Assembly (NCBI GenBank): GCA_007694935.1
Contig: REES01000076.1
Span: 1-35,575 of the forward strand
Direction: 5' to 3'
Length of the DNA stretch: 35,575 bases
Source of the DNA: Rhodospirillales bacterium
Lineage (GTDB): Bacteria; Pseudomonadota; Alphaproteobacteria; Rhodospirillales; Defluviicoccaceae
Shown here: positions 9,081 through 27,193 of the stretch, in pieces
Position numbering within the stretch: the stretch's first letter is position 1
How the letters are laid out: every line of letters begins with the position of its first letter
The notes under the pieces: model-generated
What the model saw: the letters and a program-made list of their open reading frames with translations, nothing else
Told to the model about the DNA's origin: nothing
Databases searched by the model: none
Made by a program: the position numbers and the translations under genes

Positions 9081-9220
9081 CCTCGTGCGAGCGACGTTAA
9101 CATAGCCGAATATATCATGCGGGTTAAGCTTAGGTGTAGGCTGGCGCCAGCCTGCGGGTTCCGGCGTCACAACCGTTCCCGGCAGCGGACGGTTGCCCCG
9201 GGCGAGCAGAGGATGAACAA

Positions 9221-10234
<1,014 letters not shown>

Positions 10235-10330
10235 CCGGCCAACGGCACGACACCGAACCAGGCGCCGACGTGGCAGCCAAGGCCTGGTGTGGAGCCGCAC
10301 GGGGGCCCGCGCCGACACAGCGAACCGAAT

Positions 10331-11533
10331 ATGACCAGCAGACCGACCCATCGACCTGCCGCAGCACTCTGGATCGGCGCCATGGCCGTGGCCACGTACG
10401 GTTCGGTGTATCCGTTCGACTTTCAGCCGCGACCGCTGGACAGCGCCGCCCTCATCGAACTGGTTGCCGGATCGTGGAGCTATTTCAGCCGGGGGAATGC
10501 CGTTGCCAACGTCCTGCTGTTCGCCCCGATCGGGTTCTTCGGTGCCCTGGCCGGCGGATCTGGTCACCGACGTTGGCTCTGGATCATGGTGGTCTTCGGC
10601 GTCGCCCTGGTTCTCGCGGTCGTCTTGCAGGTGGTGCAACTCTTTATTCCGGCGAGGGTGCCGAACCTTCAGGACGTGGCTTGGAACCTCGCAGGCACGG
10701 CCGGCGGCGTCTTCGCGGCGGTGCTGCTGCGCGACACCGTGCGCCGGGTCGCCATCGCCGGGCACCGGCTCCATCTCGCCCCCCTGCTCCTGATCGGTGC
10801 GTGGCTGTCCTACCGGCTGATCCCGTTCGTCCCGTCGCTCAGCTTCCAGAACATCAGGGACAGCCTCAAGCCGCTGCTGCTGGCCCCCGAAATCACTTGG
10901 CTGGCAGTTGCCCGTAGCGCCTGTGCCTGGCTGGTGGTTGCGCAATTGCTCCGGTTGGCGGGTCCGGGTCTCGCCCTCGATCGCTTCCTGGTGCTGCTGA
11001 TCATCGGGACCATTGCCCTGGAAGTGCTGATGGTGAGCAACGTCGTCAGTGCCAACAATGTGCTCGGGGCCGGTATCGCCATGCTGCTGTGGTGGCTCGC
11101 CATCAGCCGGCTTCGCGAGCCCGCCGTGTTGGTGGTGTTGCTGCTGTCGGCCTTCGTCATCGCGGCCGGGCTGGCGCCGTTCACGTTCCGCGACCCGCCG
11201 CAGCCGTTCCACTGGCTGCCGTTCCAGGGGTTTCTCGGCGGCTCGATGTACGTCAATGCCCAGGTCGCCTGCCAGAAGGTGTTCTTCTATGGAAGCCTGG
11301 TCCTGCTGCTTTGGCAGGTTCGCATCGGGCGCGCCGCGGGTTTGCTGCTGGCGGTCGTCATGATCGGTGCCGTGGAAGTGGCGCAGCGCTGGATCGATGG
11401 TCGAACCGCTGAACTGACCGACCCGCTGCTGGTGTTGATGGCCGGCGGGATGCTTTGGGCCCTGCAACGGAACGAGGGGGAACGGCCCGACGACCAGTAC
11501 CGTCGCAGGCTTGTCCGGGAGCATGCCCAGTGA
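10331..11533 (+). CDS. VanZ-like multi-span membrane protein
   Basis: This 400-residue integral membrane protein has roughly ten hydrophobic spans. The N-terminal part shows the VanZ-like signature around YGSVYPFDFQPRPL and later NVLLFAPIGFFGAL and QLFIPARVPNLQDVAWNLAG, a pattern shared with VanZ-family proteins in EPS and exosortase loci. A second, weaker copy of the pattern (VEVAQRWIDGR, ELTDPLLVLMAG) occurs near the C-terminus, suggesting internal duplication. Molecular function is unknown; some VanZ proteins bind glycopeptides, and those in EPS loci are uncharacterised. The start is taken as ATG 10331; a GTG at 10289 is in frame and neither has a strong ribosome site. It follows galE by 96 bases. 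Confidence 0.75.
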   Translation: MTSRPTHRPAAALWIGAMAVATYGSVYPFDFQPRPLDSAALIELVAGSWSYFSRGNAVANVLLFAPIGFFGALAGGSGHRRWLWIMVVFGVALVLAVVLQVVQLFIPARVPNLQDVAWNLAGTAGGVFAAVLLRDTVRRVAIAGHRLHLAPLLLIGAWLSYRLIPFVPSLSFQNIRDSLKPLLLAPEITWLAVARSACAWLVVAQLLRLAGPGLALDRFLVLLIIGTIALEVLMVSNVVSANNVLGAGIAMLLWWLAISRLREPAVLVVLLLSAFVIAAGLAPFTFRDPPQPFHWLPFQGFLGGSMYVNAQVACQKVFFYGSLVLLLWQVRIGRAAGLLLAVVMIGAVEVAQRWIDGRTAELTDPLLVLMAGGMLWALQRNEGERPDDQYRRRLVREHAQ

Positions 11534-22976: not shown

Positions 22977-23393
22977 ATGAAGGTCGTACTGGATACCGAC
23001 GTGATTGTCGCCGCCGTCCTCAGCGATCTCGGCGCCTCGCGCCAACTGCTTCTGAGGGTGGTGGACGGCGACCTGTCGGCGGGGGTGTCTGTGCCGCTGA
23101 TGCTCGAGTACGAGGCGGTTCTGAAGCGCCCGCAGCATCTACGGGCGAGCGGGCTCAGCGTCGACGACGCCGAGATCATTCTTGATGAGCTCGCCGCGTC
23201 CATGCAGCCAGTGGACCTGTTCTTTCTGTGGCGACCGATGCTCCGTGGCGCCGAGGATGACATGGTCCTGGAGACAGCGGTGAATGGTGGGGCGGACGTG
23301 ATCGTCACGTTCAACGTCAACGATTTCGGCGATGTGCCGCGCCGGTTCGGCATCGAAGTCAGGCGTCCCGGTGATCTATTGAGGAGGCTTTGA
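22977..23393 (+). CDS. PIN-domain toxin of a toxin-antitoxin pair (COG1569 type)
   Basis: This 138-residue PIN-fold ribonuclease candidate shows the acidic metal-binding set: D6 (VVLDTDV), E44/E46 (LEYEAVLK), D94/D95 and E99 (EDDMVLETA), and D116 (NVNDF). The opening MKVVLDTDVIVAAVLS and the ADVIVTFNVNDFG segment are typical of the subgroup often listed as putative toxin components. It would act as a growth-inhibiting RNase when free of antitoxin. The antitoxin gene follows with a one-base overlap (TGATG), so here the toxin comes first. The palindrome just upstream suggests autoregulation. The RNA target is unknown. Confidence 0.88.
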   Translation: MKVVLDTDVIVAAVLSDLGASRQLLLRVVDGDLSAGVSVPLMLEYEAVLKRPQHLRASGLSVDDAEIILDELAASMQPVDLFFLWRPMLRGAEDDMVLETAVNGGADVIVTFNVNDFGDVPRRFGIEVRRPGDLLRRL

Positions 23394-23644
23394 TGCGGAC
23401 CACCAACTATCCCCTCCGGGTTCCCGCCTCGATCATGGAGGAGGCAAAGAAGGCCGCCGCCCAGGACGGTGTCTCGCTCAACCAGTTCATCAGCACGGCG
23501 CTGGCCGAGAAGGTTTCGGCCCTTCGCGCCGAAGCGGTGCTGAGCGAGCGAGCACGCCGCGCCGACCGGGGCAAGTTCGACGAGGTCATGTCCCGGGCAG
23601 GCGGAACGCCGCCACGCGAAGGGGACCAATTGCCGGAGCATTAA
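23393..23644 (+). CDS. Ribbon-helix-helix antitoxin
   Basis: This 83-residue partner of the PIN toxin has the N-terminal ribbon-helix-helix pattern NYPLRVPASIMEEAKKAA then DGVSLNQFISTALAEKV, as in Arc/MetJ-like and HicB-tail antitoxins. The C-terminal 35 residues are charged and probably flexible, the usual toxin-wrapping part. The ATG at 23393 overlaps the toxin stop by one base and has GAGGAGG five bases upstream, giving coupled and strong translation. It should bind the palindrome before the toxin gene. No other gene follows in this direction. Confidence 0.85.
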   Translation: MRTTNYPLRVPASIMEEAKKAAAQDGVSLNQFISTALAEKVSALRAEAVLSERARRADRGKFDEVMSRAGGTPPREGDQLPEH

Positions 23645-23776: not shown

Positions 23777-24088
23777 TCAGTCGGCGCGGAAGAAGCGGCT
23801 GCGGAGAAGCTGGGAGGCGTCGCGGGCGTCGACCTGCTGCAGGGGCGCAGCGCCGGAGAACATGTACACGCGGCCGCTCACCGTTCCCCGCACCACGACC
23901 GGCGAGTGCTCGGTGTAGCGGACGAGGATAGTTCCCCCCGCCCCGGCGGCGGGCGGGGCCGCCCTGACGGCCTCAGTCGCCGCCTGCGCGGCGTGGGTGG
24001 TCGCGGGAGACGCCAATGTCGGTGACGCCGGCGTTACCGTCGCCGGCCGGCCCCACGCTCTGCCGAGACCCTGACCGCAGCATCCCAT
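23777..24088 (-). CDS. Small phage-like protein, unknown function
   Basis: This 103-residue protein begins MGCCGQGLGRAWG and has an Ala/Pro/Thr-rich middle. It ends in a compact domain: GGTILVRYTEHSPVVVRGTV, SGRVYMFSG, DARDASQLLRSRFFR. That last domain resembles small proteins found in phage and gene-transfer-type clusters, where a beta-rich core is followed by a DARDAxxLL helix. The start ATG 24088 has GGGAG about ten bases upstream. Its first 116 bases overlap the 3' end of the upstream gene in another frame, an unusually long overlap. It may be a virion-associated or accessory protein; no function is known. Confidence 0.6.
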   Translation of the reverse strand: MGCCGQGLGRAWGRPATVTPASPTLASPATTHAAQAATEAVRAAPPAAGAGGTILVRYTEHSPVVVRGTVSGRVYMFSGAAPLQQVDARDASQLLRSRFFRAD

Positions 24089-24428
24089 CGCTCGCTTGCT
24101 CCCTTTCCCGTTGAGGTTCCTCCTGGCCCTCGGCCAGGCGTTCGATGACCAGCGGCTCGGGCGCAAAGCGCTCGACGAGGGCAACCGCGCCCGAGATCGC
24201 GAGCCAACTCACCGCCCACTCCACCGGATCGAGGGTTACGAACGCAGCGAGCGGTGCCGCCACCACGAGCGACAGGCAGTAGACACACCCGACGGCCTCC
24301 CCGGCCCAGCCGCCGAGCCTACTCCGGAGCCGGGCGAGGACAGCGCCGGGGCCGTCCTCGCGGGCCAAGAGATGGGTGAGCCGCCAAGCGGCGAGGCTAG
24401 CCAACGCCAGCCTGAGCCAGGGATCCAT
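23973..24428 (-). CDS. DUF1360-like small membrane protein
   Basis: This 151-residue protein opens with WLRLALASLAAWRLTHLLA followed by REDGP, then RLRSRLG, GCVYCLSLVVAAPLAAF and a second span WAVSWLAISGAVALVERF. The WRLTHLL..EDGP and CxxC-LS features fit the DUF1360 pattern of short two- or three-span proteins seen in phages and bacteria. Similarity ends around residue 95. The remaining 55 residues are hydrophilic and overlap the next gene by 116 bases, so the true end of the functional domain may be earlier. It starts 19 bases after the stop of the 782-residue gene and is probably in the same transcript. Function is unknown. Confidence 0.62.
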   Translation of the reverse strand: MDPWLRLALASLAAWRLTHLLAREDGPGAVLARLRSRLGGWAGEAVGCVYCLSLVVAAPLAAFVTLDPVEWAVSWLAISGAVALVERFAPEPLVIERLAEGQEEPQREREQASDGMLRSGSRQSVGPAGDGNAGVTDIGVSRDHPRRAGGD

Positions 24429-24447: not shown

Positions 24448-26796
24448 CTAACGCCTCAAGTCGTTGCAGATGCAGATCGGGAAGAAGTCCTCGACCTGGT
24501 GCCGGCCCGCGCTTAGCGACGGGCAGATGCTGGTGTCCCACACCCTCAAGTGGATGATGTAGCCGCAACACTCGCCCGGCACCAGCTCGCCGTTCGGCCC
24601 GATGTGGGTGCGCTCGAGGGTCAGCGCCGGCTCCGCCGGATTGCACAGGCGATCCAAACGGCGGAAGTCGAGCATGGCGAGGATCCCCGGCGTGCGCGGT
24701 GGGATGACGCCTGGCGGCGGCACGGCGGTGGCGCAGCGAACGCCGGGATCGCCGACCCGCGTCGTGGCGACGAAGGGCGGACCCCACGGCGGCCCGCCCG
24801 GACCTGGCAGCGGCACGTCGAACCATGGGCCGCCGTCCTTCTTGATGCGGATCAGGTAGCCGCCGAAGTTGTCGCTCGGACGGGCCAGGTTGCCCTCCTC
24901 GATGTACTCGTCGTAGGCGATGCCGACGAGCGCCGCCGGCCAAGCCACCGCGCAGTCGCCGCTGCTCATCGCGAACTGGCTCAGGTTGATGGTGGCGCAC
25001 GGCGGCACGCCGGCGATCTGGTCGATCTTCCCGTGGATGTCCTTGTTGTCGAACCACACCTGCTGCAGGTCGTGCTTCACGTTGCCGCCGGTATCCTCGA
25101 CGGTGAGGCGCAGCGTGTAGCGGCCGCTCTGGCAGTTGCTGAGCGGCAGCGGCGTTGAGCTCCACAACGCCGGCGGGGGGCACAGGGACGCCGGCTCCGA
25201 GGGTTCGATCGGAAAGGACTGCGGCACCTGTGTCGACCAACGCACCTGCTGGAGCCAGTTCCACACCGGCGAGCACACGCCGGGCGGCCAGTTGAACTGG
25301 CGCCAGCGAGCGGTTAGTGCCTCCTCGAAGCGATTGTTGTTGCCGGCCTCGATCTGGAGTGGCGTGTTGTAGTCGACGCGCCAGAATTGGACAAAGCCTG
25401 GAAGCGCCGGGTCGACGACAAAGCCCGGGTGGTAGCTCAGGGTGTAGCGGCGGATGTCGCGGCCGGTGCAGCCGCGGACGTCGGCTGAGCCGAAGACATG
25501 GAGGCCGGTGCCGAACGAGCGGACGGTGCCGGCGCCGTCCTCGAGCTGCGCCGTCGGATCGAAGATGCCGGGCGGCTCCGCGGCCTCGATGCCCTCGAGC
25601 CCGCGGATCCACACCAGGTTGCGCTGGAGCTCGAAGACGATCGAGCAGCACTGGGGCGAGCCCTGGGTCGGGAACAGGCAGAGCTGGATCTCGACCGGCC
25701 CCGGCGGCACGTGCGGGAAGGTCTCGAGGAAGCCGAGGGTGGCGCCGACGACGCCGCAGGCGCCCTGCGCGGCCCCGCCCGGATACTTGATGCCGACGGT
25801 CTTGAACGGGCCGATGCCGCCCTGACGCCAGGCGAGCGTGTAGTGGTCGCAGAACGCGCCGGTCGCCGTGCCCTTGATCTCGACCCCGCGGAGGATGCCG
25901 GCGGCGGGGATCTCGCCCTCCTCGGCGCAGCCGTTCGGCTCGACGATCTCGCAGATCAACGGCCCGAAGCAGCGCCGAAGGCACCGCCAGTAGAACAGAA
26001 GGCAGAACAGAACGTCGATCAGGTTGCGGGCGCGGGCGAGGCAGCAGCCGAAGCGGATGGCGCACAAACACCAGCACCGGCAGAACCAGAAGAACGGCTC
26101 CTGTGCGTGCTTGGCGAACGCTTCCCGTCCCAGCAGCGCCTCGGCCACTTCCGGCTTCAGCGCCCGGTCGAAGACTTGGCCGATGATGTCGCCGCCCTCG
26201 AAGCAGTCGATCTTGCCGTCGACGACCTCGTCGGGAATACCGAGCGGGAACTCGACGCTGGCGAGCTGGTCGGTGAGGTACGGCTTATAGGCGCCGGCGA
26301 AAGCCTCGACCAGGGTCTGGAAGTCGCGCCGCTCGTCGGGGGTGAGCGGCGTGCTCACCGGCGCGCCGACCGCTTGGCGGACGCAGATCCAGTAGCGGTA
26401 GAGGTAATAGACGAAGGCGCGGAAGGTGCGAGGTCCGCGGCAGACGAGCCAGCCGAAGATAGTGCAGCAGCGGATGTGCAGGAGGCACCATCGCCAGCGG
26501 TCGACCGGCCCGAGGATCTCGCGGCCCTCGGCCGGCAACAGCTTGAGCGCCACCTCCTCGGTGAAGAGGCCTTCGAACAGGCGGTTGGCCAGCTGGAGCT
26601 CGTCCTCGCAGGCCGGCGGCTTCCGCTCCGCCTCCTTCTTCAGCGCCTCGATGTCCCGCGCCCGCTTGAGGTCCTCCTCGAGAATCGGCCGATAGGCGTC
26701 GACGAGCGCCTTGAGGACGAACTGAAAGTCCTCGCCGTCGATCTCCCTCTTGTCCTCGTCCGTCAGGGCGTCCGACGGCGTCTGGTCCTGTGGCAT
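24448..26796 (-). CDS. Large cysteine-rich two-module protein, unassigned
   Basis: This 782-residue protein starts at ATG 26796 with GGAGGAAGG close upstream. Residues 23-144 and 159-278 are two divergent copies of one module. Each begins DFQ-A-AY(R/K)P-L, has EVA-LL in the middle, and ends in a segment dense in Cys, Trp and Arg (WRWCLLHIRCC in copy 1, WFCRCWCLCAIRFGCC in copy 2) and a final aromatic/Arg helix. Residues 300-782 are beta-rich, with two similar strands-and-turn units: GVEIKGTATGAFCDHYTLAW at 304-323, and VFGSADVRGC at 434-443 leading into YTLSY. About 36 cysteines are present. There is no signal peptide and no obvious enzyme motif. The downstream neighbours look phage-like. I do not recognise the family; structural, redox or metal-binding roles are only guesses. 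Confidence 0.75.
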   Translation of the reverse strand: MPQDQTPSDALTDEDKREIDGEDFQFVLKALVDAYRPILEEDLKRARDIEALKKEAERKPPACEDELQLANRLFEGLFTEEVALKLLPAEGREILGPVDRWRWCLLHIRCCTIFGWLVCRGPRTFRAFVYYLYRYWICVRQAVGAPVSTPLTPDERRDFQTLVEAFAGAYKPYLTDQLASVEFPLGIPDEVVDGKIDCFEGGDIIGQVFDRALKPEVAEALLGREAFAKHAQEPFFWFCRCWCLCAIRFGCCLARARNLIDVLFCLLFYWRCLRRCFGPLICEIVEPNGCAEEGEIPAAGILRGVEIKGTATGAFCDHYTLAWRQGGIGPFKTVGIKYPGGAAQGACGVVGATLGFLETFPHVPPGPVEIQLCLFPTQGSPQCCSIVFELQRNLVWIRGLEGIEAAEPPGIFDPTAQLEDGAGTVRSFGTGLHVFGSADVRGCTGRDIRRYTLSYHPGFVVDPALPGFVQFWRVDYNTPLQIEAGNNNRFEEALTARWRQFNWPPGVCSPVWNWLQQVRWSTQVPQSFPIEPSEPASLCPPPALWSSTPLPLSNCQSGRYTLRLTVEDTGGNVKHDLQQVWFDNKDIHGKIDQIAGVPPCATINLSQFAMSSGDCAVAWPAALVGIAYDEYIEEGNLARPSDNFGGYLIRIKKDGGPWFDVPLPGPGGPPWGPPFVATTRVGDPGVRCATAVPPPGVIPPRTPGILAMLDFRRLDRLCNPAEPALTLERTHIGPNGELVPGECCGYIIHLRVWDTSICPSLSAGRHQVEDFFPICICNDLRR

Positions 26797-27193
26797 GGTA
26801 CCTTCCTCCCGATTCCGATGGTTGCTTGTGACCGTCCAGGTTACGGCCGCACTGCTGCGAGGTTTCGCCCCTTGTCGGGGTCGCCAGGGGAACGGCAACG
26901 GGCGGTTCGGGGGCCGCGCGGGCAGGGGACCATGAGCGGAATGCCGGCGCGGTGCGGTTCGGCAACTGGGGCGAGGCGATGCTGGTCCGTAGCGGACAGC
27001 CTCACCTTCTGCCGCAGCTCGGTGGTGAGGTCGGCGCGGTGTAAGCCGGCGAGGCTCTTCAGACCGAGTGCCTTCACGACTTCCTCGGTATTGCTGCCCT
27101 GCGGTGTGCCTCTGGCGTTGGTCACCGGCTCCTCCACTGTCAGGTTTTGGGTGATGCGGGCGACCGGTGTTCCTGGCGCCCGCCGCACCACAA
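26797..27193 (-). other. Intergenic stretch with an uncertain 116-codon frame
   Basis: A minus-strand frame at 26841-27191 begins at GTG just after the amylase stop. It contains TEEVVKALGLKSLAGLHRAD near its start and then becomes Arg/Pro-rich. It lacks a ribosome site and I cannot match it to a family. It could be a gene fragment. Nothing else is visible apart from GGAGGAAGG at the right margin of the 782-residue gene. Confidence 0.3.

Follow-up and report, generated by a model that had tools for sequence, protein, structure and literature searches.

Closest described systems and the F1-F2-F3 cassette

DUF1360 proteins (PF07098, PHROG 781), extracellular contractile injection systems (eCIS), fibrillar adhesins of the GEVED/CshA type and the Bacillus subtilis protein YqbF (2hjq) are the described systems to which we compared a cassette of three genes, here termed F1, F2 and F3, found in a 35,575-nucleotide stretch of contig REES01000076.1 from a Rhodospirillales bacterium (the window). 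eCIS were reported in 1.9% of bacterial isolate genomes in an excerpt of PMC8213781, immunoglobulin (Ig)-like folds were found in eCIS fibres according to an excerpt of PMC12923769, and GEVED has been described in fibrillar adhesins in a section of PMC10952558.

The cassette resembles each of these systems in part. The product of F2 is by profile a member of DUF1360/PHROG 781, and its two phage relatives examined sit just upstream of portal genes; however, phages yielded no F1, and F3 matched there at chance level only. Regarding eCIS, sheath genes are commoner in the genomes carrying the cassette than in two comparison groups and the window's own genome (G000) has an eCIS-like cluster, although F1-F3 were not seen inside eCIS clusters and only the cassette of one Methylomirabilota genome (G875) lies within about 5 kb of a tail cluster. 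With the GEVED/CshA-type adhesins F1 has a beta-sandwich stalk in common, and a GEVED-like paralogue carries an F1-type C-terminal half, but no signal peptide is evident in F1 and its N-terminal half is helical and Cys-rich. The folded end of F3 displays a small shape similar to that of the N-terminal domain of YqbF (Z 4.9, root-mean-square deviation (rmsd) 1.6 over 44 residues); this match is nevertheless weak and tied with GINS domains, and the F3 profile had no PDB sequence match at E≤10.

Taken together, the evidence points to F1 and its two small partners being a real but undescribed molecular system, and no published account of the cassette was present among the literature matches listed. 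As to what this system does, our working explanation, possible though still doubtful, is that F1-F3 form a structural assembly of phage origin, stapled by cysteines and linked to the membrane, perhaps serving as an accessory or cargo of contractile particles.

F1 carries a tandemly duplicated Cys-rich module

F1, the core gene of the cassette, encodes a Cys-rich protein of 782 residues in an intact open reading frame (ORF) on the minus strand (24448..26796, ATG at 26796, stop at 24448-24450), as an earlier sequence-only reading of this DNA had proposed. The protein contains 36 Cys, and the GC content at third codon positions in its frame is 0.91, as expected for a coding gene in this DNA.

Its N-terminal half is composed of two helical modules, module 1 (residues 23-144; 26365..26730, minus strand) ending in a helix pair at about residues 102-142, and module 2 (residues 159-278; 25963..26322, minus strand), a tandem copy with more cysteines. 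The sequence-only reading had also recognised this duplication, which our comparisons bear out: the local alignment of the two modules scored 91, compared to a mean of 29.6 (standard deviation 4.7, maximum 47) for 500 shuffles, a z of 12.9, and the module profiles built from 16 homologues align with each other at 98.98% (E 5.9e-18, 124 columns). A blastp comparison of F1 with itself listed the full-length match alone and did not recover the duplication. The AlphaFold model of F1 (pLDDT 77.5, pTM 0.57, poor at residues 176-205) displays a similar order of helices in both modules, the final two being 18-20 residues long in each (102-142 and 236-276). On these alignments the N-terminal modules are a true tandem duplication.

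The helix pair of module 2 (residues 235-276, FFWFCRCWCLCAIRFGCC...; 25969..26094, minus strand) is, together with that of module 1, the most conserved part of the family, the mean majority-residue identity being 0.81 in residues 236-285 and 101-145 and 0.44-0.68 in the beta-rich half over an alignment of 16 rows. In the same alignment, 15 of the 18 Cys of residues 63-290 are kept in every row, conservation being 94% for the remaining three; their spacing follows C-x-C-x-C-x-C plus CC pairs. Module 1 has 6 Cys and module 2 has 10 (12 when C282 and C290 are included), so that the doubled cysteine density claimed for the second copy is roughly right.

Hydropathy of the four long helices was expressed as the best 19-residue value in each of the 16 rows. 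Helices 102-119 and 236-255 ranged from 0.81 to 1.45 and from 1.17 to 1.57, respectively, whereas helices 125-142 (-0.49 to 0.73) and 259-276 (-0.44 to 1.79) extended down to negative values. Membrane hairpins, which had looked likely at first, became doubtful once hydropathy was followed across the rows. No signal peptide was evident in F1 either, judged by inspection and hydropathy only and in line with the previous reading; the protein of the window starts with an acidic, hydrophilic segment, and the best 15-residue hydropathy within the first 40 residues did not exceed 1.18 in any of the 16 rows.

F1 was likewise said to belong to no recognised family, and library searches agree. Pfam and NCBIfam gave no match for any of the 16 rows at E≤0.1, PADLOC-DB returned no family for F1, F2 and F3 of the window and of locus L022 at the same threshold, PHROGs gave chance-level matches only for the three F1 rows scanned, the PDB searched by sequence gave F1 no match beyond antibody-type ones at E 0.15 and above, and no toxin family matched F1 in the library scans. 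The F1 family and its operon are clearly conserved and are new to the libraries tested.

F2 and F3 accompany F1 at most loci

To survey the gene neighborhood, 18 F1 loci were used: that of the window, two additional ones from Methylomirabilota, and 15 obtained by scanning 84,980 species genomes. The scan, carried out with six 8-residue patterns taken all from a single sequence (P0001), yielded 26 stretches, 15 of which encode full-length F1 relatives with 37-71% identity in the best segment. Such a survey of homologues had been suggested along with the sequence-only reading, and it revealed the F1-F2-F3 unit, in which F1 is followed by F2, encoding the DUF1360 protein, and then by an overlapping F3 (MGCCGQ...). 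In the window F2 starts 19 nucleotides downstream of the F1 end, and its final 116 nucleotides are shared with F3. Of the 18 loci, 16 have F3 downstream of F1 and 15 have F2 (13 and 12, respectively, among the 15 scan loci alone). Loci L010 and L012 have neither gene beside F1, and L017 retains an F2 remnant only. When F3 was searched genome-wide it was present in 13/15 scan genomes and was not found in those of L010 (G837, where 150 of 184 candidates were scored) and L012.

F2 (23973..24428, minus strand) is a 151-residue membrane-type protein with hydrophobic segments and a C-x-x-C motif (C48, C51) that is conserved in the F2 alignment. Its relatives from L011, L022 and L018 match PF07098 with 33.5, 26.4 and 22.5 bits, above the cut-off of 21 bits, and the F2 of the window, with 18.2 bits, is slightly under this cut-off and has 43-49% identity to the other 12 aligned rows; PHROG 781 matches F2 in the 1e-4 range. 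By its sequence, F2 thus belongs to DUF1360 (PF07098)/PHROG 781, and the earlier notion of phage-like small neighbors is upheld in that the DUF1360 likeness is real and F2 is part of a conserved cassette, to which the overlapping F3, unnamed in that reading, must be added. A tblastn search with F2 gave weak relatives in 25 phage records (17 from Gordonia, 5 from Microbacterium and 3 from Arthrobacter phages), and in both of the records examined, those of phages A3Wally and Ribeye, the F2 relative is directly upstream of the portal gene. A3Wally gp81 is matched by tblastn at 5e-6 and by the F2 profile at 5.7e-12, and Ribeye gp12 only at 0.7 by tblastn and at 2.3e-4 by the profile. In Gordonia phage Ribeye, this gene adjoins one annotated as superinfection exclusion.

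F3 (23777..24088, minus strand) encodes 103 residues, with the MGCCGQ N-terminus that carries a conserved CCG, a linker predicted with low confidence and a small, well predicted folded domain in the 50 residues of the C-terminal end. Small domains of the kind it resembles occur in phage head modules. The fold matches are weak, with Z up to 5.2 for GINS domains, 4.9 for YqbF and 3.9 for gpFI, and the F3 of L022 gave chance-level matches only in phages and plasmids.

The presence of conserved Cys in all three proteins (those of F1, the CxxC of F2 and the CCG of F3) would suit a role in metal or thiol handling, in which copper, zinc or iron-sulphur would be ligated by the Cys-rich F1 helices, and metal or electrons moved across the membrane by F2 with its CxxC. 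For F1, the Csp copper-storage proteins, Cys-lined four-helix bundles that bind Cu(I), would be a possible comparison. Nonetheless, the Cys spacing of F1 is not known as a storage or cluster motif, no metal gene was noticed in the recurring flank clusters, which were not annotated systematically, and the large beta-sandwich half would be left unexplained; we thus consider this role markedly improbable.

The beta-sandwich half of F1 is shared with a paralogue

Residues 279-782 of F1 (24451..25962, minus strand) are predicted by AlphaFold and fold search to form fibronectin/Ig-like beta-sandwich domains. Residues 279-392, the first of these, resemble single beta-sandwich domains, 6tn6 among them (Z 8.3, rmsd 2.4 over 86 residues), and the entire half matches fibronectin type III (FN3) arrays with Z of about 9 and an rmsd of 6-10 in most top rows; these long FN3-array matches indicate the fold class only. 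Fold searches with F1 were filled by generic beta-sandwich arrays and contained no capsid or tail fold, the N-terminal half being hardly tested there. The C-terminal half had been read as repeated beta-sandwich-like units. The beta-sandwich part of that claim agrees with the fold search; as sequence repeats, on the other hand, the units are unsupported, since five slices of this half showed no mutual profile likeness (all 10 pairs at or below 15%), and the word repeated is therefore true only at the level of the fold class.

The Methylomirabilota genome G879 holds, besides, a paralogue of F1 (L044 1468-4167, minus strand, 899 residues) having the same C-terminal half and a different N-terminal one, which is a tandem repeat in its own right (score 487; shuffles reached 52 at most). 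A GEVED signature is present in this paralogue: the protein as a whole passes the Pfam cut-off with 6.3e-07, with no single stretch significant. It has no relative in phages, plasmids or viral contigs, and no signal peptide was evident in it by inspection only. Since an F1-type C-terminal half is here joined to another duplicated N-terminal half, the beta-rich half looks like a shared chassis for different duplicated N-terminal halves, as judged from this one paralogue.

The fibronectin/Ig-like stalk would fit as well an adhesin or matrix protein that acts alone at the cell surface, is anchored by its Cys-rich end and has nothing to do with phage particles, and so would the tandem-repeat N-terminal half with GEVED signature of the paralogue, given the fibrillar adhesins of the PMC10952558 section. 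Such a protein would be expected to carry a signal peptide, and none is evident in F1 or the paralogue by inspection; we regard this explanation as rather unlikely.

The same architecture may be read as a toxin-immunity style unit, where the Arg/Trp/Cys helix pairs of F1 insert in a target membrane, with the beta-sandwich half serving in target recognition and F2 as a membrane-borne immunity protein. Conserved helix pairs (0.81) next to a more variable C-terminal half (0.44-0.68), a membrane-type F2 encoded beside F1, and a paralogue in which the C-terminal half is joined to another N-terminal half, as for a delivery part with exchangeable payloads, are all in agreement with this proposal. It is harder to reconcile with helices 125-142 and 259-276, the hydropathy of which extends down to negative values and makes insertion of whole hairpins doubtful, with the absence of F2 and F3 beside F1 at L010 and L012 and the loss of most of F2 at L017, and with the lack of a match to toxin families; moreover, it gives F3 no role. 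On balance, a toxin-immunity unit seems distinctly unlikely.

The cassette is rare and horizontally spread

Carriers found in the scan are labelled as Kiloniellales, Gemmatimonadetes, Acidobacteria/Terriglobia/Bryobacteraceae, NC10/Methylomirabilota, Opitutales, Deferribacteres, Rhodothermaceae, Burkholderiales and Deltaproteobacteria. According to the record titles all 15 are metagenome-assembled, and thus some of the taxon labels may reflect binning errors; for the same reason the family would escape work on cultured bacteria. A search in Methylomirabilota found F1 in 4 of 95 genomes. Two of these carriers were additional to the scan: G879, and G875, in which the contig bearing F1 measures 675 kb.

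Within the window's own lineage, the searches covered 100 relatives, 385 genomes of the class and 398 of the phylum, three sets which overlap; each contained a single full-length F1, and it was always that of the window's genome. The other matches (1 among the 100 relatives and 6 among the 385) were short fragments with E of 0.003-0.008, taken as chance. Vertical inheritance of F1 in this lineage was accordingly discarded, the sole full-length copy in relatives, class and phylum being the window's own.

In a maximum-likelihood tree of the 18 F1 proteins, with 10 of 15 inner branches strongly supported, the sequences from Methylomirabilota are split over three clades, and those from Burkholderiales, Acidobacteriota and 'Deltaproteobacteria' over two in each case. 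An all-against-all comparison of the flanks showed F1-F3 to be widely common; otherwise mainly gene pairs were shared, and the other flanking genes mostly differ. Mostly differing flanks together with an F1 tree in conflict with phylum indicate that the cassette has spread horizontally. An F1 family with 15 Cys invariant over 16 aligned rows, about 780 residues kept intact and horizontal spread over at least 7 phyla (by record labels) is evidently under selection for something.

A phage, viral or plasmid origin of the whole cassette was also considered and rejected, there being no F1 relative in IMG/VR, phages or plasmids and F2 alone having phage kin; the F2 and F3 alignments found nothing in IMG/VR. 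A small cassette with a patchy spread that conflicts with phylogeny would also be consistent with a unit of phage origin that bacteria retain for exclusion of, or defence against, incoming phages and pass on horizontally, as would the phage kin of F2 in the packaging/portal region, one of them (Ribeye) beside a superinfection exclusion gene. However, PADLOC gave no match for F1, F2 or F3, F1 has no Pfam domain, and the cassette is rare, with 15 carriers in a scan made with single-sequence patterns, so that we hold a role in exclusion or defence to be unlikely.

Contractile tails in carrier genomes and the proposed assembly

The sequence-only reading had listed a scaffold, a metal- or redox-active structural protein and a part of a capsid- or tail-derived machine, all of them still candidates. 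No capsid or tail fold was found in F1 by fold searches that hardly covered its N-terminal half; what does favor a relation to tails is an excess of sheath genes in the carriers and one case of proximity. Sheath genes were defined as matches to PF04984 at E≤0.001 and genome counts were compared by Fisher tests. A sheath gene is present in 10/18 F1-carrier genomes (8 of these above the curated cut-off), compared to 40/385 class genomes (39/384 without G000) and 6/95 Methylomirabilota (4/91 among the F1-negative ones). The excess in carriers has a p of 6e-6 against the class relatives and of 8e-7 against the F1-negative Methylomirabilota; within Methylomirabilota only, 2/4 carriers compared to 4/91 gives a p of 0.019.

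Over the 18 genomes, one sheath is near the cassette, 9 genomes have theirs on a contig other than that of F1, and in 8 no sheath was found; many contigs are short, and further neighbors of cassette and tail could thus be missed. In G875 the sheath gene begins 5 kb downstream of F3 and is followed by baseplate-J and spike genes. Between cassette and tail (L045 15773-17644, plus strand) lie genes for a thermolysin-type peptidase, its inhibitor emfourin and a DUF3467 protein, the last of which recurs beside the sheath of G879 with 78% identity.

Based on gene lists, the sheath loci of G000, G843, G845, G848 and G879 resemble eCIS, as does one of the two in G850. For G875, G841 and the other locus of G850 the likeness of the sheaths suggests a second tail type, and the sheath genes of G837 and G838 look like orphans. 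The cluster of G000 is on another contig (contig 13, about 18-40 kb; L081, L082) and includes a sheath, a tube-like gene, an AAA ATPase, baseplate-like parts and a 2040-residue protein with a DUF4157-type HEIAH motif, the eCIS assignment resting on the sheath and AAA matches, the HEIAH motif and a CIS-tube match under its cut-off. As a separate observation, no neighboring tail genes were recognised around the apparently orphan sheath genes L083 9174-10820 (minus strand; a Kiloniellales metagenome-assembled genome, MAG) and L088 8958-10343 (plus strand; a Gemmatimonadetes MAG).

Our tentative explanation takes F1, F2 and F3 as one horizontally moving unit that would build a membrane-linked assembly from phage-type parts. 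F2 would be placed in the inner membrane, F3 would act as a small adaptor with a Cys-Cys tail, and F1 would bind both with its pair of Cys-rich helical modules, in which disulfides or a bound metal may be present outside the reducing cytoplasm. The fibronectin/Ig-like C-terminal domains may then project as a binding or spacer arm. Lacking an evident signal peptide, F1 would exit the cell with a particle released by lysis, as a part or cargo of it, most likely a contractile tail-like one. We infer in this way a physical complex of the three proteins, its disulfide or metal bonding, its localisation and a working link to tails. If the tail link is true, the cassette would stand for a class of unlinked accessories to contractile particles that is invisible to locus-based surveys.

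Several observations weigh against this explanation. Simple transmembrane hairpins are disfavored by two of the four long F1 helices, whose hydropathy is unlike that of membrane segments in the majority of rows or in all of them. The phage likeness of F3 is weak, the YqbF match (Z 4.9, 44 residues) being tied with GINS domains, and F1 itself was not found in IMG/VR, phages or plasmids. As for the tails, 8 of the 18 carriers, one of 8.3 Mb, have no sheath match, the curated cut-off gives 8/18 carriers compared to 34/385 and 6/95, and 3 of the 14 well-known genomes taken as controls likewise have a sheath; different phyla and incomplete MAGs are pooled in the comparison, with no correction for phylogeny or MAG quality. 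The cassette is beside a tail cluster in G875 only (1/18 loci), the sheath of which had no relative among the other stretches then compared, and no match to F1, F2 or F3 profiles was present in the tail clusters searched, among the matches listed (the best 40 for one C-terminal slice).

A bolder proposal would make of F1-F2-F3 a new kind of machine, a phage-derived, cysteine-stapled, membrane-anchored spike or channel, traded across many phyla for use against competitors or phages and independent of known secretion and defence systems. There is only a slight chance, in our opinion, that this is so.

Neighboring genes and other features of the window

Outside the cassette, related Burkholderiales loci L021 and L023 have many flanking genes in common, some pairs of genomes have a single flanking gene in common, and two broad flank clusters recur, one ABC-transporter/amidase-like and the other hydrolase-like. 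A small 'NVTGVGIG' protein and a trypsin-like peptidase are encoded near the cassette in one 'Deltaproteobacterium' (L022 13113-14577, plus strand) and in one NC10 genome (L047 7493-8815, minus strand).

Upstream of F1, a 116-residue ORF (26841-27191) had no blastp relative at the other loci and is probably outside the cassette. Sigma-54-type promoters gave no match in 17 stretches of up to 300 bases each upstream of F1.

On the other side and on the opposite strand, the cassette of the window adjoins a PIN-domain gene directly followed by a HicB/CopG-like gene (22977-23644, plus strand), probably a toxin-antitoxin pair. Further away, positions 9167-11533 of the window contain long open frames on both strands; the 785-residue frame of the minus strand had no Pfam or PHROG match at E≤1, and the GC content by codon position favors two frames of the plus strand.

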